Assembly: GCF_026241195.1 (NCBI RefSeq)
Contig: NZ_JAPFQO010000005.1
Span: 1 to 64,000 of the forward strand
Reading direction: 5' to 3'
Length of the DNA stretch: 64,000 nt
Origin: Pontibacter anaerobius
GTDB taxonomy: Bacteria > Bacteroidota > Bacteroidia > Cytophagales > Hymenobacteraceae
Shown here: piece after piece, positions 9,746 through 28,506 of the stretch
Layout of the letters: the number at the start of each line of letters is the position of its first letter
Numbering within the stretch: the stretch's first letter is position 1
Made by a program: the position numbers and the translations under genes
The notes under the pieces: model-generated
The model's database searches: none
What the model saw: the letters and a program-made list of their open reading frames with translations, nothing else
What the model was told of the DNA's origin: nothing

Positions 9746-12700
9746 TCATTTTATGATCAGTTTTGTAGCCATGATTCCCGATGGAGCCACGACTCGAATG
9801 AGATAGATGCCCTGGCTCAGCGCCCCGTCAACTATTACCTCTTTACTACAAGCCCCCTGTTCATCAGTTTCTGCTGAAAGCGAAGTGACTAACTGCCCTG
9901 CAATATCATGTATCGAAATTTTTAAGACCTCATGCTCCTCAAAGTTAGCCACCTCCACAAAGAACTTACTACCAGAGCTCGTAGGGTTAGGATACACCTG
10001 CAGGCGTCGCTCTTTGCTCAATGGCCCTTCTGCAACAGAGAGTGTGTTTACGGATGTTGCAGCCATCGAGGAGGCCTGATAAATTTCCAATCCAGCAATA
10101 GCGACCCGGTTTACGGTCGGATTAAATTTGATACTCAAGTTACCATCCGTTACGTTAACCAAAAAGTCTTTCACTAGAGCAGACCTGTAGCCAACCTCCT
10201 TGAAGATGTCAAAGTAAGGTAGCGCTAGCTGGTTTTCTATTGTAGTATTGAACTCCCTTGCTCCTTCTCCATTAAAATAGTTCTCTACAAAGTGCATGCG
10301 CACCATATAACTACCATTTTGAATCGGGATCGCATAACGTGTTTCTGCTAGGTCACTAGAAGCGGACAGGTAGGTTTGATACAGGATATCATCGTCCGTT
10401 GCCGCAATCGGACCTGCCACCACCTGTTTATCAAGTTTGATGGATCCTTGCCTGTAGTTCTTATCTGCCTCCCACACATTACCGGCAATGGTTATGTTAG
10501 CATCTGCCGCACCTTTTATACGCTTAAGCGCAGTAATTGTAGAGCTGCTCGTGTTGGCTATACCATACAATGGGATTCGAAGCGGCTTGTTTGAGTTATT
10601 GTAGTGCACCAGCAACGCTGCATTTTTTATTCCCAGGCTCTGTGGTTGAAATTTAACTGAAATACTTGTGGAAGCTTGTGGCGCCAGTGTACTGGTACTT
10701 GGTGCTACAGCTGAAAACTCACCTTTATTCGGACCTGTTATTTCTATTCCTTTGATAGAGACAGAAGGATCGCCACTGCTTCCGAGGTTCTTAAGACTTA
10801 CAGATAAAGACTTGCTACCGCCCGTTACTACAGATCCGAAAGTCACCGCTGAAGGTGCCGAAGCCAGTTCAGAATAATTGGCAGAGCCCGTTTCAGGTTT
10901 GATATTGCTGACGTAGTACACGTTATCGTTATAGTCATAGTTCACCGATGGGGAGTCAAGGTAGTCCATGGCCATGATATAGGTGTTGGGGATGATATTA
11001 CCGTTTGCGTCAACAGCTTTCCAGATCCTGATACCGATTTTACCACCTACGTTCCTTGTTCTATCCGTGTGAGACAAGCTTACTTTGATACCGAACGGCC
11101 CCGAGGGGCTAAATGTACCCTGTGCCAATTCTGTCGAAGAACCTGACTTGCGCGGCAACAAGGACTGCCCATCGAGTGAGTTGTGCGTGAACACAGTCGC
11201 GTTTGAAGTAGAACCCTTCGCGTACCACTGGAAACTCTGCGTAGATGAGCAGCAGCCGTGGTAAGCCGCCATCTGAATCACGTACACAGGCTGGCTTGGG
11301 TCTGCCCGGACAAAGAAAGATGAAATGATCTCGTCTGAGTTAGGCACAATCGCTGTACCATCATTAGTTCCATCATTCGCATTGTACCCTGTCTTAGAAA
11401 GGAACCCGAAAGCACTTAGGATTTCCTGGGCGTACGGCTCATTATTGCCCTCCCCTTTATACTGCCACAACCCATTCAGGTTAACATCCTTGTTTGGAGT
11501 AGTGGCATCATTTGACGTAATGGTCAGCTTATCTTTAAGTATCTTGACGCGGCCACCCAGATCTTTCGCAACAAACTGGATAACAGCCTCCACGGATTGC
11601 CCCGCGCTTAGGTTTAGTGGCAGGCTGGTACTGCTGTTATAACTAGCACCTCCCAATGACACTATCTTCCAGGCAGCAGGGTTCGACAGTGTCAGTTTTG
11701 ACACATTCAGTGTTTCTGTGCCTTTGTTACTGATCTTAAGCCGCACCACGTCGTGATTCTCATTATAAGGTGTTACAGTAGGTGATGTTCTCCGCCACGG
11801 GATCTGGATTAGAGAGAAAGTCAATCGATCTGAGGCAGGAAACTTGTCCATATTTTGGACTACTAAGCGTCCGTTGCTAACAGAACCTTTCACAACACTA
11901 AAGTTTGTTACCCCGGTAGTTGTCACGTTGCCATTCCCATCTGTTGCCTTAGCCTGCAAAGTATAGTTCCCAACTTGTGTTATGGTGAATGGTGCGGCAT
12001 ATGTCTGGAAGGCCCCACTGTTTAGACTGTATTGCACGGTCGCTAAACCTGAACCGCCCTGATCGGAAGCATCAACAGAGACTGTCACTTCATTGATATA
12101 AGTGTTAGTTGACTGTACAGCACCACTTAACTGAACTGCAACCGCTGGCGGCGTTGTGTCTTCTCCTGGTGAAGTAGCACCGACAATCTCAATAGCCGAG
12201 ACAATAGCATTGTTGGCCACGGAGGTGAAGGCGATGTTAAGGGTTCCGTCACTCACACTTACCCCCTCAAAGGTCTTGACCACGGCCTTGCCGAAGCCGT
12301 CTTGGGCGTAAATATCGTAACCGGTCAGCACCCGTTTGCCCTCCACATCTACGTGGAAAGAGCGTTCGCCGGCCGCTTTAAAGTATGGTTCTACAAAGTG
12401 TAGTTTTACAGTGTAGGTACCAGCACTCAATGATATGTTATAATTGAATGGTGCACCAGCAGCAGCGTAGCGGTAGGCCAGGTACAGCGCGTCGTCCGTG
12501 GTACCGGCCACGTTGAAGGATTTAGAGGAGGCCTCACCGCCCGAGAAGCCTGCGTCGGCTGACCAGGTGCGCGACTGCCCGTCAACGTACTGTCCGCCGC
12601 CTGCGTTGATGAGCTTACTGGCTGTCTGAGTTGGCGGCGGAGTACCTGCGTCGTTCGCACGCAGTAATGTAATGCGCGGCTGGCCATCACCATTTCCGTC

Positions 12701-15700
12701 AAAGTATTCTGATATATAGAGGTTTCCTGTACGGACATCTTCGATTACATCCAGCGGGTTAGCAAACGGGCGACGCAAACCGGGCACATCACTACCCTCT
12801 GTAGCACGAATAATATCCAGGTTACTAGCTCCAGGCTCCAACACTATAATGTCATCACCACCACTAAAGCGGCAAACAAGGAGCTTGCCTTTTAACTTTC
12901 CTCCAAATGCACTGCTCTTATACTCGATCACACCGTTAGGCGACTTGTTTAGACCAAAATCATATGCCCAACCTTTGTAGTTCGGCTCTTTCGGTGTACC
13001 TACCGGATAGCCATACGTTTGGCCATTCAGTGTCCAGGTCACCTCGCCCGGGTCAGTGCCTGAGGTAGGATTTGCCCCATTCATAATGTACTCTTTACGG
13101 AGCACGTTCGGGTGTCCATAATATCCTCCCTTCACTATTCTGAACAGATAGTCGCTCTGTGTATCACGCACGTTGTTCATGGCTGGCACATCAGGCCCCG
13201 TGTATACCTGACCATTAGACCAAACCGATCCGGACTTTAATGCCGGCGTGTTGCCACCCGCAGCAGAACCGTTTGTTGGCACATACAACTGCCCGTTTGA
13301 ATGCCATACCAGGTCATAAGCATTACGTACACCTGTGGCATATATAGTTAAGGCTGCGCTTGTAGAATATGGGTTATAGGAACCACCTTCCTCGGTTTTA
13401 GCATTTATAGGTAGCGACAACTGTTTAGCCTTGGCGATATCTAAACGTAGCACCGCAGCCGAAAGTAAATGCTCATCCCTATAGCCCCAAGCCCCATCAG
13501 GTGCTCCCATGGCGGTATTACTACCCTGCAAGAAATAAAGTGCACCATCAGGGCCAAAGTCTATACTGTTCGTTGCGTGATCTTTAGTTGAGCGCGGCAG
13601 GTTCACTACATAATCCACCACTTGCGGGTTAGATGTATTATTTAGATTAACCTGGGAAACTTTACCACTCCAATCCGGTGCATCACTGAATTCCGGAGCA
13701 GAGTGACTAATCCAGGCAACTAAGTTGCTGGCTGTAGCCGAAGGATCAAAACGAAGTCCTATGAGCAAGCGCCTGCTACCACCAAATGGAGAGATAGTAA
13801 CGTTGTTGGCCAATGTGCCATCAGCTTTTAAGTCCCAACGCTCAATCTTTCCGCCTGAAGTTGCAGCATATAGTTTGTTATCAGGACCGATCACTAAAGA
13901 TGTAAACCCGTCGCTTCCAAAGTTACTATCAACCAGAATCTGCTCTGTAAAGGCAACGCCAGCTAAGTCTGTAGGTATATCGCTGGTAGAACTTGCCGTG
14001 GTAAAGTGCGAAGTAAACGGCTTCATCATATAACCATTCAGGTCTTTTACCTGATCGCTCACGTAAAACTCATACGTAGTACTCAGGGCCAGCGACGCAG
14101 AAAGTGTAATGGCATCTCCAGCTGCAGTGGCATTTACAGCTGTGCCTGTCACCTCAGTTTTGCTCGTACCGGACACTTTGTACAGCTTAACGGAGCTGGT
14201 ATTAACAGTATTTCCATCAATAGACTTGCCGCTTGGATAAGCTATATCAACAGAAACTGAATGCCCTAAGGGTACACTAATTGCCCCATCAGCTGGGCGC
14301 ACAGCTGTAACATAAGGCCGTAAACTTTCCTCATAGCTTGCAACCTCAAGCGTCACAATCAACTCGGCAGGCGTATACCCTATAGCGGATGCCGTCACCG
14401 TAGCAGTATAAGTTCCGGCGGCAAGCGAGCCAGCATTAACGGAAAACAGTAATTCGTTCCCGGTAGATCCTAAGCTATAGGTCACATTATTCGCTTCTGA
14501 AAGCGCCTTGCCCCCAAAAGTTAACCATGTAGGTACACTCGTCCCTCCTACCTCTGTCGCAGTAAGCTGTACTGTAACCGGATCTTCATCAGAGTTATTC
14601 AGGTTTACCTTGAGCTCCTTCTGCTGACCGCTTGGAAGGTTTACAGTAGCCGAAGCCGGAGTAAACAGGAGCAGTGGTTGTGTAGTACCCGACTGTCCCA
14701 GCACCTCGATGGCCGAGACGATGGCGTTGTTGGCCACGGAGGTGAAGGCGATGTTGAGAGCGCCGTCGGCTACGCTCACCCCCTCGAAGGTCTTGACCAC
14801 GGCCGCGCCGAAGCCGCTCTCGGCGTAGATGTCGTAGCCGGTCAGCACCCGCTGGCCCTCCACGTCCACGTGGAAGGAGCGCCCCCCGGCCGCCTTGAAC
14901 CACGGCTCCACCAGGTGCAGCTTCACGGTGTAGGTGCCGGCGCTGAGCGGAAGGCTGTAGCTGAACGGCGCCCCGTCCAGGGCGTAGCGGTAGGCCAGGT
15001 ACAGCGCATCGTCCGTGGTGCCGGCCACGTTGAAGGACTTGGAGGAGGCCACCCCGCCCGAGAAGCCCGCGTCGGCTGACCAGGTGCGCGACTGCCCGTC
15101 AACGTACTGACTGCCGCCCGCATTAATAAGTTGTGTGGCAGTTTGCTGGGTTTGTGTGAAGGTTGCCGTTACTGTTTTATTAGCATCCATAACGATGCTG
15201 AGCGGGGTGGTCGTCCCTGATACGTCTCCGCTCCAGCCACTAAACTGATACCCTGTAGCTGGCACCGCCGTGAGCGTTACACTGGTACCTCCCGCATAGG
15301 AACTTTGGTCAGGCCTCTTTGTTACAGTTCCGCTACCAGCTGTCCCCACAGTTAAAGTATAGTTCGCTGTACCTGACTGCCCCAGCACCTCGATGGCCGA
15401 GACGATGGCGTTGTTGGTCACGGAGGTGAAGGCGATGTTGAGAGCGCCGTCGGCCACGCTCACCCCCTCGAAGGTCTTGACCACGGCCGCGCCGAAGCCG
15501 CTCTCGGCGTAGATGTCGTAGCCGGTCAGCACCCGCTGGCCCTCCACGTCCACGTGGAAGGAGCGCCCCCCGGCCGCCTTGAACCACGGCTCCACCAGGT
15601 GCAGCTTCACGGTGTAGGTGCCGGCGCTGAGCGGAAGGCTGTAGCTGAACGGCGCCCCGTCCAGGGCGTAGCGGTAGGCCAGGTACAGCGCATCGTCCGT

Positions 15701-18421
15701 GGTGCCGGCCACGTTGAAGGACTTGGAGGAGGCTACCCCGCCCGAGAAGCCCGCGTCGGCTGACCAGGTGCGCGACTGCCCGTCAACGTACTGACTGCCG
15801 CCCGCATTAATGAGCTGGCTTGCCGTCTCGGCAGGAGGCGGAGTAGTAGTGCCATCACTTACCGTAAAGTTAACAGACAATGACGCTCCTGGTGTGCCTG
15901 TCCCACCTGAGGCGGAGTAAGGGGTACCTTTAATAGTATAGTTGCCTGCCACAGGTGTCCAGCCGTAGTAACCGCCGTTGTTATCATCCCCGTAAAGGGC
16001 ATAGGGCATCGCACTCTCTGTCACGGCTTTTGTTTCGGCACCTGTCAGCTCCATCACCACACTTCCTACCGTAGCTGGATTCGTATTGGCCCGGATGTTC
16101 AGGTTCTTGGTTGGCAGGGAGGTAAGGTCCAGGGTGGCTCCGTTCGATAAGGTCTGTATATCCTGGTCTGTATCAGCATTTACCAGGGTAAAAGAACTTA
16201 CTGCCTGCTGGTCATTGGTAACACCGGATGGGGTACCTTTGAATGTGGTGCTGGTTTTTGCCCCCCCTGTGTAGAAAAGGCTCCCTCCTAAGTTTGCAGC
16301 CACACCGGAGTACCTGTTCTGCGGAAGTGGCGTTAGACTCTCCCATGTGTTAGTGGCTGGCGAGTAGGCCGACACCATGTTCGTGCTGCCGCTACTGTGC
16401 ACCGTCTCACCACCCAACACCAGTATTCTGCTTCCAACAATAATCACGGAAGACGATATATGGCCCCGCCCAGTAGTTCCCGATGGTACAGGCAAATCCG
16501 CCATCTTTGTCCAGGTATTTGAGGAAGGGTCATACCGGTGCACCTCCTTACTGGCAACAAGCTCACTATCGTGCCCAGTCTGTCCACCTATATAGTAAAT
16601 TTTACCTTCATACACTGCTGAGCCTGCATGCTGCCTTGGCGCAGGAAGAGCGGCCAAGGTTTTCCAGCCGGCTGCCAGGTTATCCAGATCCAGTACATAA
16701 TGATCCCCGAGATCCATTGTGCGGGAAGAGTTTGTTCCGGCGATATGGTGTAGTTTACCATTCTCATACTCCAACTGTCCTGCCGAGATTGTCACAGGCA
16801 AATCAGGTAGTCGTTCATAGCGATTCTCTTTTACGATGTACTTCCAGGCTTCCTTAGTTCCAAAAATCTGACCTGACCCGGTTGAGTTAGAGGTATAACC
16901 TCCAGCAAAATATATATCTGTACCGTCGGTTGCAAAGCCGGCGTGTGTAACGCCACCATAGTTTGTCCCGTTCATAGGAGGCATAGAGGCAATAGCAGAC
17001 CAAGAGTTTACAACCGGGTCATAAACATAAGCACGACTGGTAGGCGTGAACGTTGTTTTCTGGCTATCAAAGCCTCCAAAGGTATAAAGCTTACCTCCTA
17101 CCGCCTCTCCCTGTGCTTCGCTTACGGTATAAGGCTGACTTGCCGCGGTACTCCAACTAATGGAGCTAAACGCACCCATGTTAGTCCCTGCACTAACAGA
17201 AACGGTGACATTTGCTGTGGCAGATGCACCACCTGTGTCTGTAGCCTTTACTATCAGACCATAGTTTGCCTGGGTGTGGTAGTTCAGTTTTTTGGCAACC
17301 CCTATGGCTCCTGTAGATGAGTTAATAGTAAAAGTACCGTTCGTATTGCCTCCTGCGATTGTATAAGTAACACTACCTCCATCAGGGTCTGAGGCAGAAA
17401 CTGTACCAATGGTAGTGCCTGTGAAGGAGTTATCAGAAACTGAGAAGCTATAGCTGGAAGCCGAAAAGGCAGGAGCCCCACTCCCTCCTGATGTTTCACC
17501 CGAAATAGAAAACTCATCAAAAGAGTAAGTAACAGACGTGTTTGAGTTACGATGCGAAGCGAAGACACCTGCATAGGCCGTTGCTCCACTAATCCCCATT
17601 CCTGTTGTACTTAGTGTTGGTTGCGAATAACTCGCCCCAACATTCTTGTAAGTAGTACCATCGGTCGAGTAAAATCCATAGACAAGATTGGCTGAGGGAT
17701 CCAAAATCAACCTCAAGCGGACATTTTGGGTACTAAGTCCTGTTATACTTGAGGTAACACGCTGATCCGAGGAAGTAGAAACATCATTGATTTCCCTGCG
17801 AAGCTCTACCTTGGAGTTTACAACCACTAGCTTAACAAAGGTTTTATCGCTTAAGCCTAACCAGAGTCCTGCCTGCTCATAACTGGTACCATTAAACGGT
17901 TTAACCAGCACAGCATCTATCTGTAAGCGTCCGCGCGTATCAACCTGCACCCCCAAAGTATTTAATTGGTTATTATCAGTAAGGTAAGCAAAGCCCTTAT
18001 TGCTAGCCAGCTGCAGCACACCTCCGGTAAGGGTTAGCTTAGATGGCTCGTAACCCGGAACTGTAGTGTTTGTGGGAGTCCCATCTATAGCCAAGCGGGT
18101 ACCCGAATACGGCGCCACCATCGTGAACCCTGTACCCACTCCATTCTTGTCAGCCAGAGTACCTGATATGCCGCTATTGAAAGAAAGGTTAAAGGGTAAG
18201 TTCACCTGAAGTTGGCTGCAGTCCAGTGGGCTTAGCGAAGGACAGGCAACAAAAGAACTGTAGTTAGATGATCTATGCCCTTCAGTTGGTGGACTTACAT
18301 GACTGTTAGCGTATCCTCTGCCCCCCACAGTATTGACTATAACTATAGCTAGTAAAACCAGTAGTTTTAGATTCTCTAAATATCCTATGCAAGTAACTGT
18401 ACTAGTAGATTTCTTTTCCAT
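9746..18421 (-). CDS. Giant secreted multidomain protein: Kelch, four malectin domains, sorbosone-dehydrogenase-like propeller, T9SS tail
   Basis: A 2891-residue protein with a signal anchor/peptide (hydrophobic ~18-33) and a C-terminal T9SS sorting domain (~2804-2891: YPNP, GIYLIRV, KLIIK end), so it should cross the outer membrane and be released or surface-anchored. Rough order: concanavalin-like region 65-310; cadherin-like 314-411; Kelch propeller ~425-725; linker domain 741-848 (starts FTLVNADTDQDI); malectin 1 ~870-1016; bacterial repeat domain ~1020-1095 (GYQFSGWSGD); malectin 2 ~1098-1244; Ig-like 1245-1475; glucose/sorbosone-dehydrogenase-like propeller ~1488-1918 (TGVRNAYDLVWH); malectin 3 ~1939-2081; Ig-like 2088-2180; choice-of-anchor/ASPM-type Ig region to ~2625; diverged malectin 4 ~2631-2781. 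A carbohydrate-binding surface or matrix role is inferred; catalytic activity is unproven. Malectins 1 and 2 are encoded by a near-identical GC-rich repeat. Confidence 0.85.
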   Translation of the reverse strand: MEKKSTSTVTCIGYLENLKLLVLLAIVIVNTVGGRGYANSHVSPPTEGHRSSNYSSFVACPSLSPLDCSQLQVNLPFNLSFNSGISGTLADKNGVGTGFTMVAPYSGTRLAIDGTPTNTTVPGYEPSKLTLTGGVLQLASNKGFAYLTDNNQLNTLGVQVDTRGRLQIDAVLVKPFNGTSYEQAGLWLGLSDKTFVKLVVVNSKVELRREINDVSTSSDQRVTSSITGLSTQNVRLRLILDPSANLVYGFYSTDGTTYKNVGASYSQPTLSTTGMGISGATAYAGVFASHRNSNTSVTYSFDEFSISGETSGGSGAPAFSASSYSFSVSDNSFTGTTIGTVSASDPDGGSVTYTIAGGNTNGTFTINSSTGAIGVAKKLNYHTQANYGLIVKATDTGGASATANVTVSVSAGTNMGAFSSISWSTAASQPYTVSEAQGEAVGGKLYTFGGFDSQKTTFTPTSRAYVYDPVVNSWSAIASMPPMNGTNYGGVTHAGFATDGTDIYFAGGYTSNSTGSGQIFGTKEAWKYIVKENRYERLPDLPVTISAGQLEYENGKLHHIAGTNSSRTMDLGDHYVLDLDNLAAGWKTLAALPAPRQHAGSAVYEGKIYYIGGQTGHDSELVASKEVHRYDPSSNTWTKMADLPVPSGTTGRGHISSSVIIVGSRILVLGGETVHSSGSTNMVSAYSPATNTWESLTPLPQNRYSGVAANLGGSLFYTGGAKTSTTFKGTPSGVTNDQQAVSSFTLVNADTDQDIQTLSNGATLDLTSLPTKNLNIRANTNPATVGSVVMELTGAETKAVTESAMPYALYGDDNNGGYYGWTPVAGNYTIKGTPYSASGGTGTPGASLSVNFTVSDGTTTPPPAETASQLINAGGSQYVDGQSRTWSADAGFSGGVASSKSFNVAGTTDDALYLAYRYALDGAPFSYSLPLSAGTYTVKLHLVEPWFKAAGGRSFHVDVEGQRVLTGYDIYAESGFGAAVVKTFEGVSVADGALNIAFTSVTNNAIVSAIEVLGQSGTANYTLTVGTAGSGTVTKRPDQSSYAGGTSVTLTAVPATGYQFSGWSGDVSGTTTPLSIVMDANKTVTATFTQTQQTATQLINAGGSQYVDGQSRTWSADAGFSGGVASSKSFNVAGTTDDALYLAYRYALDGAPFSYSLPLSAGTYTVKLHLVEPWFKAAGGRSFHVDVEGQRVLTGYDIYAESGFGAAVVKTFEGVSVADGALNIAFTSVANNAIVSAIEVLGQSGTTQPLLLFTPASATVNLPSGQQKELKVNLNNSDEDPVTVQLTATEVGGTSVPTWLTFGGKALSEANNVTYSLGSTGNELLFSVNAGSLAAGTYTATVTASAIGYTPAELIVTLEVASYEESLRPYVTAVRPADGAISVPLGHSVSVDIAYPSGKSIDGNTVNTSSVKLYKVSGTSKTEVTGTAVNATAAGDAITLSASLALSTTYEFYVSDQVKDLNGYMMKPFTSHFTTASSTSDIPTDLAGVAFTEQILVDSNFGSDGFTSLVIGPDNKLYAATSGGKIERWDLKADGTLANNVTISPFGGSRRLLIGLRFDPSATASNLVAWISHSAPEFSDAPDWSGKVSQVNLNNTSNPQVVDYVVNLPRSTKDHATNSIDFGPDGALYFLQGSNTAMGAPDGAWGYRDEHLLSAAVLRLDIAKAKQLSLPINAKTEEGGSYNPYSTSAALTIYATGVRNAYDLVWHSNGQLYVPTNGSAAGGNTPALKSGSVWSNGQVYTGPDVPAMNNVRDTQSDYLFRIVKGGYYGHPNVLRKEYIMNGANPTSGTDPGEVTWTLNGQTYGYPVGTPKEPNYKGWAYDFGLNKSPNGVIEYKSSAFGGKLKGKLLVCRFSGGDDIIVLEPGASNLDIIRATEGSDVPGLRRPFANPLDVIEDVRTGNLYISEYFDGNGDGQPRITLLRANDAGTPPPTQTASKLINAGGGQYVDGQSRTWSADAGFSGGEASSKSFNVAGTTDDALYLAYRYAAAGAPFNYNISLSAGTYTVKLHFVEPYFKAAGERSFHVDVEGKRVLTGYDIYAQDGFGKAVVKTFEGVSVSDGTLNIAFTSVANNAIVSAIEIVGATSPGEDTTPPAVAVQLSGAVQSTNTYINEVTVSVDASDQGGSGLATVQYSLNSGAFQTYAAPFTITQVGNYTLQAKATDGNGNVTTTGVTNFSVVKGSVSNGRLVVQNMDKFPASDRLTFSLIQIPWRRTSPTVTPYNENHDVVRLKISNKGTETLNVSKLTLSNPAAWKIVSLGGASYNSSTSLPLNLSAGQSVEAVIQFVAKDLGGRVKILKDKLTITSNDATTPNKDVNLNGLWQYKGEGNNEPYAQEILSAFGFLSKTGYNANDGTNDGTAIVPNSDEIISSFFVRADPSQPVYVIQMAAYHGCCSSTQSFQWYAKGSTSNATVFTHNSLDGQSLLPRKSGSSTELAQGTFSPSGPFGIKVSLSHTDRTRNVGGKIGIRIWKAVDANGNIIPNTYIMAMDYLDSPSVNYDYNDNVYYVSNIKPETGSANYSELASAPSAVTFGSVVTGGSKSLSVSLKNLGSSGDPSVSIKGIEITGPNKGEFSAVAPSTSTLAPQASTSISVKFQPQSLGIKNAALLVHYNNSNKPLRIPLYGIANTSSSTITALKRIKGAADANITIAGNVWEADKNYRQGSIKLDKQVVAGPIAATDDDILYQTYLSASSDLAETRYAIPIQNGSYMVRMHFVENYFNGEGAREFNTTIENQLALPYFDIFKEVGYRSALVKDFLVNVTDGNLSIKFNPTVNRVAIAGLEIYQASSMAATSVNTLSVAEGPLSKERRLQVYPNPTSSGSKFFVEVANFEEHEVLKISIHDIAGQLVTSLSAETDEQGACSKEVIVDGALSQGIYLIRVVAPSGIMATKLIIK
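12180..12605 (-). repeat. Third, diverged copy of the malectin-encoding repeat
   Basis: This encodes malectin 3 (about residues 1939-2081). It is clearly related to the 437-bp repeats but has many substitutions in its middle part. The stretch of about 12470-12600, encoding the N-terminal end of the domain, is much closer to them. The uneven similarity suggests partial gene conversion. Confidence 0.7.
14691..15127 (-). repeat. 437-bp GC-rich direct repeat, copy A (malectin 2)
   Basis: Aligns base for base with 15375-15811 at an offset of 684. By eye I count four C/T differences in 437 positions. One sample line (14881-14940) has 43 G+C of 60, far above the flanks. Confidence 0.92.
15375..15811 (-). 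repeat. 437-bp GC-rich direct repeat, copy B (malectin 1)
   Basis: Partner of the repeat at 14691-15127. The 684-base period equals 228 codons, so gain or loss of one unit by recombination would keep the reading frame. The encoded domains differ at a single residue (SVTNN versus SVANN). Confidence 0.92.
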
Positions 18422-26100: not shown

Positions 26101-28506
26101 TCATACGCTTACAAGCTTTTTAAATTTATTTTTGCGTGGCCCTTCTACGCCCTCACCATAGCCATAGCCATAGCCATAGCCGTAGCCATAACTGTTTTCA
26201 TTCTTCGCATCATTAATGACGATCATAGAATGCTTAAACTTGCTGTTCTTATAAATATCATCAATGATATTCACCTGCTCTTTAAAGGTGTAGTTGTAGC
26301 GAACCACATAGATGCTCGAGTCGATATAGGGCGCCAGTGAAAGTGCATCTGCCACCTGCCCAACTGGAGGTGTGTCTAGTATAACAAAATCAAACCTTAG
26401 CTTGAGTTCTTCTATAAGTTTACCAACCCCCGGAAGCAGCATTAACTCAGACGGATTTGGAGGAATAGGTCCTGCCCCTATAACGTACAGGTCAGGCAGT
26501 GCTCTGGAGGGAATTATCACCTCATCCACTGCCTGGACATCTGATATTAAGTAGTTAGTTATCCCCTTGTCGGCAAATAAGCCCAGGCTTTGGGTCAAGC
26601 CAGATTTTCTCAGATCGAAACCGAGTACAACTACTTTTTTACCCGTCAATACAAGGCTGGCACCAAGGTTTATACTTATAAAGGTTTTACCTTCGCCGCT
26701 CATACTGGAGGTAACGAGAATTACTTTATTTTCCCTCCCTCCGGTAGCGAACTGCAGATTAGCACGAATAAGCCGGAACAATTCTGCAACAGGTGTTCTG
26801 CTTTTGCTGGTCACAACTACTGTTTCTTTGCCTTTGCTATGCGCAATCTCACCCAAAATAGGTGTAGAAGTGAGGGATTCAACATCTTTTCGCTCCTGTA
26901 CTTTATCATTCAGCACCTCCTTCATGTACACGTAGCCCATTGGTACACCTATCCCCAAGATCAAAGCGAGTGCATAGATAAGCGTAGTGCGCGGTCTTAC
27001 AGGATAATCCCCCAGAACTGCCTCATCAATTATACGCAAGTTCGAGATAGTGGCCGCTAATGACATGGCAGACTCCTCGCGTTTCTGCAGCAGAAACAGG
27101 TACAGTTCCTGTTTAACGCCCTGCTGCCGGTTTATCTCCAGCAAGTCGCGCTCTATGGAAGGCACCTTTTGAATTCTGGACTCAAACTGGGCATGGCTCG
27201 ATTTCAGATTGTCCCGAGTTATAATCAGGCCGCTTTTAATATTGCGCAGGTTTTCCAGAATATTTACCCGCAGGTTGGCTAGCTGATCGTTTATATTGAG
27301 CACAAGGGGGTTATTGGGCTGTGTTGTTCGCAGCATACGCTGCAGTTCCAGTTGTAGTTCGTTGAATTTACCTATCAGCCCCACTAGCGTGGGATCCTGA
27401 ATATTTAGCGTGCTCGGTACAAGTTCGTACTGATTTTCTTGCTTATTTAGGTACTGCTCAATAGACTGCAGTACATCAATCTGGATTTCCCAATCTGCCA
27501 ACTGCTTGTTATACTCGCCGGCCTTCTGTATATATAATTGCGCCTGGGCACTTACATCTGTCACTTCGTTGCGCCGCTTGTAGTTCTCCACATCCTTCTC
27601 TACATCGGTTAACTCAACGGTAAGGTATTTCAGTCGTTCATCTATAAACTGTAAGGTGTTGGAGGCTACTATTTTCTTATCTTCTACAGCCTCCTCATTG
27701 TATATCTCGATCAATTTCTTAATTATATCCTGTCCTCTTTCAGGTATAGGATCTGTTAAGGTTAAAGACAACACACTTGTATACTTGTTTACCGATGTGA
27801 CATTTAGCACCCCACTGTAAATAGAAGCCAGGTTTTCAATATGGTTAAACACTACCCGCACATTGTTTTCTTCGCGAAGCACCCCGGATGTGGCCACCAC
27901 AGTAAAAGTACCGTAAGGCTTCACTATCTGTTGCCCAAACTTATGCGTAGTTGGTTTCTTCGGTTCCTCTGTAGCTAAAAGTTTTGCAATAGGTGGGTAT
28001 GCGTGTTGAGAAATATCTTCTATCTCTTCTAACTCGAACGTATTATTATCTTTAATATGTACAATAAGGTTCTTACTGTAAGCTTCTGGTGATAATTCAC
28101 TTACGATAACTTTTATAGGTAATGAACTCCCATAAACTTCTGATGATTTTATCCTTCCATCCACAAAATAGCTTGTTTGCAGAGAGAGTTCTGAGAGTAC
28201 GCGTTGCATAAGCCCTAGAGATCTCAGGACTTCGACCTCATTATCGACATTTTTAGTAGTCTGAAAGATGTCCAATTCGCTGAACATCTCATTAGCGGCC
28301 ACTCCTGGCTTTGCAATATCATCCTTTATAAGCAGCGTACTACTGATACTATAAACAGGAGTAGCATACCGTATGTATAGAAATGCTGTACCTAATGTAA
28401 TTATAAGGGCTCCAAAGAACAGTAGCCAATGTCGCAGATACTTTAACAGAAGCATTTTTAAATTAAAATCTTCTGGCTCTACAAAATACTTATCAGTCTC
28501 TCTCAT
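26101..28506 (-). CDS. wzc: Wzc-like polysaccharide co-polymerase and tyrosine autokinase
   Basis: About 801 residues. It sets chain length and, through C-terminal tyrosine phosphorylation, controls polymerisation and export. In the 801-residue numbering: TM1 ~29-47, a long periplasmic coiled-coil-rich region, a Pro/Gly TM2 region ~508-527, then the BY-kinase domain with Walker A SGEGKT (603-608), Walker A' GFDLRKS (Asp631) and Walker B FVILDTPP (Asp711). The tail has a (Tyr-Gly)6 run, the expected autophosphorylation cluster, encoded by a hexanucleotide repeat (26156-26191). I chose the start at 28506 (MRETDKYF), 11 bases after the wza stop; the longer frame to 28563 overlaps wza and gives an untypical N-terminus. 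Confidence 0.92.
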   Translation of the reverse strand: MRETDKYFVEPEDFNLKMLLLKYLRHWLLFFGALIITLGTAFLYIRYATPVYSISSTLLIKDDIAKPGVAANEMFSELDIFQTTKNVDNEVEVLRSLGLMQRVLSELSLQTSYFVDGRIKSSEVYGSSLPIKVIVSELSPEAYSKNLIVHIKDNNTFELEEIEDISQHAYPPIAKLLATEEPKKPTTHKFGQQIVKPYGTFTVVATSGVLREENNVRVVFNHIENLASIYSGVLNVTSVNKYTSVLSLTLTDPIPERGQDIIKKLIEIYNEEAVEDKKIVASNTLQFIDERLKYLTVELTDVEKDVENYKRRNEVTDVSAQAQLYIQKAGEYNKQLADWEIQIDVLQSIEQYLNKQENQYELVPSTLNIQDPTLVGLIGKFNELQLELQRMLRTTQPNNPLVLNINDQLANLRVNILENLRNIKSGLIITRDNLKSSHAQFESRIQKVPSIERDLLEINRQQGVKQELYLFLLQKREESAMSLAATISNLRIIDEAVLGDYPVRPRTTLIYALALILGIGVPMGYVYMKEVLNDKVQERKDVESLTSTPILGEIAHSKGKETVVVTSKSRTPVAELFRLIRANLQFATGGRENKVILVTSSMSGEGKTFISINLGASLVLTGKKVVVLGFDLRKSGLTQSLGLFADKGITNYLISDVQAVDEVIIPSRALPDLYVIGAGPIPPNPSELMLLPGVGKLIEELKLRFDFVILDTPPVGQVADALSLAPYIDSSIYVVRYNYTFKEQVNIIDDIYKNSKFKHSMIVINDAKNENSYGYGYGYGYGYGEGVEGPRKNKFKKLVSV
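26156..26191 (-). repeat. Hexanucleotide repeat encoding the Tyr-Gly tail of Wzc
   Basis: Tandem CCATAG units on the plus strand (four identical, then one CCGTAG and a partial unit) encode alternating Tyr and Gly. Slippage would change the number of tyrosines without a frameshift. Confidence 0.85.

Follow-up and report, generated by a model that had tools for sequence, protein, structure and literature searches.

Excess silent-site GC in near-identical repeated domains of Pontibacter genes, with biased gene conversion as a candidate cause

Within one gene of Pontibacter anaerobius, two near-identical malectin segments are extremely rich in G and C at silent sites, and this enrichment stops at the edges of the repeat. 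The association is not confined to this gene: in several types of domain of the sampled loci, near-identity to another copy is linked to an excess of silent GC. We hold with moderate confidence that gene conversion between malectin copies, biased toward G and C, is the best explanation of the near-identity together with the silent-GC excess. In what follows, the window is the whole stretch of DNA that was analyzed (64,000 nucleotides), silent GC is given as GC3 or as fourfold-site GC, and genomes are referred to by number (G000, the genome of the window; G033, Pontibacter silvestris).

Repeated malectins in a giant reading frame

The repeats lie in a long open reading frame (ORF) with the following features, in window coordinates:

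9746..18421, minus strand: ORF of 2891 aa, a giant multidomain protein with a type IX secretion tail
17504..18247, minus strand: DUF1349-like domain, weak Pfam match below the cut-off, GC at background
17195..17452, minus strand: cadherin domain, Pfam match
16247..16762, minus strand: kelch repeats, Pfam match
15375..15811, minus strand: malectin copy 1, GC3 0.94
15149..15361, minus strand: single Flg_new_2 domain, between malectin copies 1 and 2
14691..15127, minus strand: malectin copy 2, GC3 0.93, missing in the P. silvestris orthologue
13997..14320, minus strand: Big_5 domain, Pfam match
12185..12610, minus strand: malectin copy 3, 81% nucleotide identity to copies 1 and 2, fourfold-site GC 0.62
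10082..10516, minus strand: malectin 4 of a diverged type, GC equal to the gene background, 81% amino acid identity to its P. silvestris counterpart
9752..9997, minus strand: Por_Secre_tail, the type IX secretion sorting domain, Pfam match

The order of domains from the N-terminus is DUF1349 (weak), cadherin, kelch, malectin, Flg_new_2, malectin, Big_5, malectin, Cep192/HYDIN-type Ig, malectin, and type IX secretion tail. A reading made earlier from the sequence alone had proposed malectins in a secreted-type protein, and both assignments agree with Pfam, in which PF11721 (malectin) matches the protein in four stretches with 324 bits against a cut-off of 23, and the C-terminal sorting domain PF18962 scores 36.4 bits against a cut-off of 27, the latter pointing to a probable secretion-type protein.

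Base comparison confirmed the report of two 437-bp repeats with four differences: segments 14691-15127 and 15375-15811 are 437 bp each, are spaced by a period of 684, and show exactly four mismatches, at 14696, 14734, 14771, and 15050. The 684-base period was also correctly described as in-frame, lying within the 2891-aa ORF. Outside the repeat, identity at the 684-bp register falls to 11-24 of 60 bases. The aligned malectin domain holds three of the four differences (two silent and one amino acid change), and position 14696 is outside the aligned part. The near-identical part is the malectin alone; the copies enclose the only Flg_new_2 domain, which contains the GYQFSGWSGD stretch. The third malectin copy (12185-12610) has diverged, with 81% nucleotide and 87% amino acid identity to copies 1 and 2.

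The repeats had been called GC-rich, and this stands (GC of 0.68 per copy, versus 0.50 for the gene and 0.42 for the window); the most informative feature, namely that the excess is at silent sites and stops at the repeat edges, had been missed. The two copies have GC3 values of 0.938 and 0.931, the spacer (15128-15374) has 0.446, and the flanks, taken as 60 codons on each side, have 0.483 and 0.417; first and second codon positions vary little between copies, spacer, and flanks. Fourfold-site GC is 0.94 for the malectin copies of the window, compared to 0.41 for the non-malectin remainder of the gene, and 0.92 for the repeat tract, with non-repeat windows of the ORF reaching 0.63 at most. Because single-copy windows of this genome average 0.55 and peak at 0.90 (1314 overlapping 80-site windows, 264 kb of ORFs), the silent GC of the repeat is at the extreme for the genome; the local step within one gene is the stronger point. 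The DUF1349-like and Flg_new_2 domains of the window, for which no close copy was found in the examined loci, are at background (-0.06 and -0.04). On the same contig, positions 84001-104000 (L277) contain a run of single-copy genes whose silent GC is unusually high and reaches 0.90.

Silent GC and identity to another copy

Malectins were detected in 20 of the 50 Pontibacter genomes searched. The malectin set, taken from 48 stretches and the first 24 kb of the window, yielded 104 domain hits, of which 81 were full length; the statistics cover all of these 81 except G015C3_174, which had no background. The closer the best same-genome copy of a malectin, the larger its excess of fourfold-site GC over the remainder of the ORF tended to be (Spearman 0.64, n=80, relatedness uncorrected). 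Malectins with a copy of at least 90% identity had a mean excess of +0.33 and were positive in 14 of 14 cases; the mean was +0.11 for those with a 75-90% copy (n=17) and +0.02 for those whose best copy was below 75% (n=49). An independent-pairs test of the malectins yielded 3 supported pairs only and was without power.

Some malectin outliers had no partner in view, e.g., G071C4_485532 (+0.31) and G069C1_2682524 (+0.29). For two outliers of G015, near-identical sequence was found at contig edges: the start of contig C3 (L069:1-139) matches at 97% over 139 bp, and both ends of the small contig C9 match, 95 bp at 100% and 99 bp at 99%. Draft contigs of the relatives stop inside malectin or DUF1349-like domains, mostly GC-rich ones (L069:1-139, both ends of L070, and the ends of L073 and L097), and short-read assemblies may, therefore, break at repeats and undercount copies.

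Other repeated domains behave in the same way. For DUF1349-like domains, copies of at least 90% identity were positive in 4 of 4 cases, with a mean of +0.49, versus a mean of 0.00 for domains below 80% or alone (n=16); for the domain that we labeled "YTDR" in this analysis, the corresponding values were 13 of 13, +0.17, and 0.00 (n=17), and for Flg_new_2, 9 of 10, +0.09, and -0.03 (n=16). Seven YTDR and nine Flg_new_2 domains at 80-90% were kept outside these contrasts, and one YTDR domain was without background; it should be noted that the three domain types share ORFs and genomes, so that their counts are non-independent. A cause specific to malectins is rejected, because these other domains share the excess and malectins that lack a close copy show none on average.

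We sampled 35 genomes, at loci mostly picked for malectins, and 15 of these had a scorable near-identical coding repeat, 14 being Pontibacter and one belonging to another genus of the family. Among the 27 ORFs with a scorable repeat, 24 had a positive silent-GC excess, and the rotation p value was below 0.05 in 20; genome means were positive in 14 of 15. Another 14 ORFs had too few sites inside or outside the repeat and were unscored, and two "repeats" of G014 were removed before scoring, being the same DNA in overlapping ORFs. The limit of the repeat scan was 90% identity, so repeats of 88-90%, e.g., in G036 C51 (0.88 versus 0.65), fall below it. The excess extends to tracts other than malectins: a 729-bp DUF1349-like repeat of G015, 100% identical, has a fourfold-site GC of 0.97 versus 0.34, a 773-bp repeat of G022 has 0.62 versus 0.28, and in a tandem unit of 1053 bp in G032 the malectin has 0.57 and the remainder of the unit 0.59, versus 0.23.

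Orthologues, the proposed mechanism, and its rivals

The orthologues of genomes G024 and G031 share the order of a metalloprotease-like N-terminal part (in G024, with a Pfam match just under the cut-off), malectin, Flg_new_2, malectin, and tail. Within G024, the two malectins share 99.1% of their nucleotides, and they are 74-77% identical to those of G031, the own pair of G031 being 82% identical, and the middle Flg_new_2 domain is 65% identical in amino acids between the two genomes. Along the N-terminal part, first malectin, Flg_new_2 domain, second malectin, and tail, the fourfold-site GC of G024 is 0.44, 0.76, 0.40, 0.75, and 0.38, whereas that of G031 is flat (0.69, 0.68, 0.64, 0.71, and 0.64). 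In this pair, silent GC rises only in the homogenized domains.

The orthologue of P. silvestris is full length (3059 aa), is without malectin 2, and has two extra malectins further on; three malectins stand at the site of the third malectin of the window, behind a stretch, the G063 homologue of which weakly matches a sugar-dehydrogenase family, below the cut-off. Malectin number thus varies between species. The sequence-only reading had looked to related genomes for such variation, which is there but not in 684-bp units, and its expectation that a malectin plus the GYQFSGWSGD domain would be gained or lost together is not supported here, since P. silvestris differs by malectin alone. Nor does the pattern require unequal crossing-over of the entire 684-bp unit, the middle domain being unhomogenized. 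Malectins 1-4 of P. silvestris are 74-81% identical in amino acids among themselves and 64-71% identical to the three of the window, of which 1 and 3 are 87% alike; the C-terminal malectin (window malectin 4) is 81% identical across the species. Copies are closer within a species than across species, and, therefore, these malectins evolve jointly in each species, with a number that shifts between species. Judged by sequence identity, concerted evolution is shown in two orthologue comparisons, G024/G031 and window/P. silvestris, and the earlier suggestion of recent duplication or ongoing conversion is supported.

Under the proposed mechanism, homologous recombination between malectin copies of the same genome would overwrite one copy by the other (gene conversion), and the Flg_new_2 domain between the copies would stay untouched. 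If mismatches formed during conversion are resolved toward G or C more often, the silent sites of a domain that has been part of a near-identical set for a long time would drift to high GC. We infer such biased mismatch resolution, i.e., GC-biased gene conversion, as the cause of the GC excess; a bias toward G/C would account for the excess at silent sites and its edges, and for the fact that homologues with no copy lack it on average. For seven cases, an equilibrium assumption about composition puts the scaled bias at about 1.3-4.1 log-odds units. Of the differences in seven malectin pairs, 43 were polarized as S to W and 35 as W to S, and 9 were unpolarized, with some votes conflicting. The two most GC-rich pairs, those of the window and of G063, each have three polarized changes, all of them S to W (in the window, these are the three polarizable copy differences), and solely these two pairs suggest an AT-biased input.

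An alternative is that a GC-rich malectin came from a GC-rich donor and was then recently duplicated, in which case GC content and near-identity both mark recency and no biased conversion is involved. Taken alone, the window is compatible with an already GC-rich malectin that was then recently duplicated, which is possible because copy 2, 99% identical to copy 1, is missing in P. silvestris; further, the GC-rich copies of G015 and G063 are 86% alike in DNA. The G024/G031 comparison, however, favors conversion, since the GC-rich malectins of G024 occupy the positions of the ordinary-GC ones of G031. Non-malectin tracts and multi-domain units also carry the excess, which speaks against the donor scenario. 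In a tree of 77 malectins of the genus, made by a quick search with many weak forks and excluding four diverged malectins, GC-rich copies are scattered and near-identical copies pair within genomes; the closest relatives of the window copies are the third copy of the same gene, with a fourfold-site GC of 0.62, followed by the malectins of G031 and G024. No outside donor was found among 395 genomes of the class, in which the best match beyond the genus is about 48-52% identical in amino acids, and a pattern scan of 84,980 species genomes returned 5 loci, four in Pontibacter and one on an archaeal-labelled contig that matches mainly the Flg_new_2 part. Import from an outside donor is made unlikely by the tree and the genome searches, and we consider the donor-and-duplication scenario as a whole unlikely.

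Conversely, GC-rich segments might recombine or duplicate more readily, so that repeats are GC-rich for that reason. The window genome does contain single-copy stretches with a fourfold-site GC of 0.8-0.9, and in 12 of the 27 scored ORFs some non-repeat window equals or exceeds the repeat in GC; in the other direction, the repeat tract is above every non-repeat window in 15 of the 27 (e.g., 0.92 versus a highest value of 0.63 in G000, 0.95 versus 0.50 in G015 C9, and 0.92 versus 0.42 in G063 C8), and the GC rise in the G024/G031 pair is limited to the homogenized domains. This reversed order of cause and effect appears to us improbable, to about the same degree as the donor scenario.

Selection on codon usage or on the RNA structure of the domains is very improbable: the excess does sit at silent sites, but the GC step falls inside one gene, homologous domains that have no close copy average background GC, and genes of the ribosomal region are AT-ending. 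Ten ORFs of this region in the window genome have a fourfold-site GC of 0.15-0.31 (gene names, ribosomal protein S3 aside, were read by eye), and, therefore, translational codon choice does not explain the silent GC and is rejected. Slightest of all is the chance of an assembly artefact, which the draft state of the assembly (29 contigs) and the ends of the relatives' contigs inside such repeats might suggest, given that the copies differ at four places, their flanks differ, and similar GC-raised repeats are found on a G032 contig of 2.7 Mb and in G022 and G069, genomes that are each listed as one contig.

With biased conversion as the preferred reading, a broader proposition can be made, on which we are evenly divided: conversion in Pontibacter and relatives may be so GC-biased that most coding segments long kept near-identical have their silent GC raised one domain at a time, reaching 0.92-0.97 from about 0.3-0.4 where the effect is strongest, which would make a natural, domain-resolved demonstration in bacteria; multicopy IS elements may do so too.

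Exceptions, controls, and setting

The association has exceptions. A clear counterexample is L230 (G027 C31), in which a repeat of 432 codons with 99.3% identity has a fourfold-site GC of 0.36, versus 0.56 for the remainder of the gene. Among 20 stretches selected chiefly because of PKD arrays rather than malectins, only two ORFs were scorable, with opposite signs (G008 +0.33, G027 -0.20). Approximately no excess was detected in G024 C11 L076|-1|2962 (+0.04) and G031 L115|-1|4013 (+0.01), the excess was negative at the start of G015 C3 (-0.04) and in an IS pair of G022 (-0.11), and a gene pair of G071 with 89.9% identity showed none (0.37 versus 0.43). Roughly 840 kb from G000, G022, and G032, chosen regardless of repeats, contained no further coding repeats except an IS copy.

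As a control for copy number alone, we took 15 IS stretches, 11 of which had a near-identical partner among them. Because these 11 partnered stretches themselves have a fourfold-site GC of 0.54-0.85 (10 unscored, 1 scored), IS elements are unusable as a negative control. IS transposase genes with values of 0.75-0.91 were seen in L206-L208, L254, and L261 (G022), L218 (G009), L209-L210 (G021), and L211-L212 (G069); genes beside the IS have 0.24 in G022 and 0.66 in G009, and in G069 they are as GC-rich as the IS. The GC-rich IS could be either foreign DNA or the product of the same process acting on multicopy genes.

In mammals, GC-rich multicopy genes such as histones are known, in which copies under conversion turn GC-rich; that system is eukaryotic and involves whole genes, whereas here bacterial domains within a gene are concerned. 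Tandem-repeat surface proteins of bacteria have in-frame repeats in variable copy number; unlike these, the window copies are split by an unhomogenized domain and carry a GC step. G/C-favoring conversion in bacteria is disputed, and loci of the window type would allow its bias to be measured directly. Copied and uncopied domains, and homogenized and non-homogenized orthologues, stand side by side in them, and, therefore, expression level, replication position, and gene-wide codon selection are removed as confounders. A further lesson is that GC-rich patches within bacterial genes are not necessarily of foreign origin.

Lassalle et al. 2015 (PMC4450053) argue for GC-biased conversion in bacteria, having linked inferred recombination to higher GC, chiefly at third positions, a pattern that they present as independent of optimal codons. 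That contrast is between genes with and without inferred recombination, and ours is between neighboring domains of one gene and between orthologues; moreover, copying here is between repeats inside one genome, and the word "paralog" is absent from the Lassalle text (PMC4450053). Bobay and Ochman reportedly reject GC-biased conversion in bacteria or find the opposite, as cited in PMC6867656 and PMC8223754. For paralogues of M. tuberculosis, PMC13061034 describes conversion that is likewise between repeated regions but, unlike here, GC content unassociated with conversion frequency. Our search for malectin in Pontibacter returned no literature match, and the domain-level GC/repeat pattern was undescribed in the titles and abstract beginnings among the best 7-15 matches listed for each search, a set that leaves subscription literature mostly uncovered.

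The 2891-aa protein is likely secreted, as the sorting domain implies, and a hydrophobic stretch at its N-terminus is visible by eye only. Its gene neighborhood includes genes for an alginate lyase, a heparinase-like protein, and a polysaccharide lyase that itself carries a malectin, along with glycosyltransferase, export, and chain-length genes; since these are exopolysaccharide-type genes, a matrix-polysaccharide-binding role is plausible, and the protein probably has it, if family and gene setting are a guide. The malectins of the window would then be lectins, as expected from the malectin family and the same setting. The exopolysaccharide gene region as a whole spans positions 1505-38697 of the window and includes glycosyltransferases, the heparinase-like gene, the alginate lyase, the malectin-bearing polysaccharide lyase, a Wzy-type ligase, and export/chain-length proteins. 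Within a Wzz/GNVR-type chain-length gene, a tandem array of 5.8 CCATAG units occupies positions 26156-26190.
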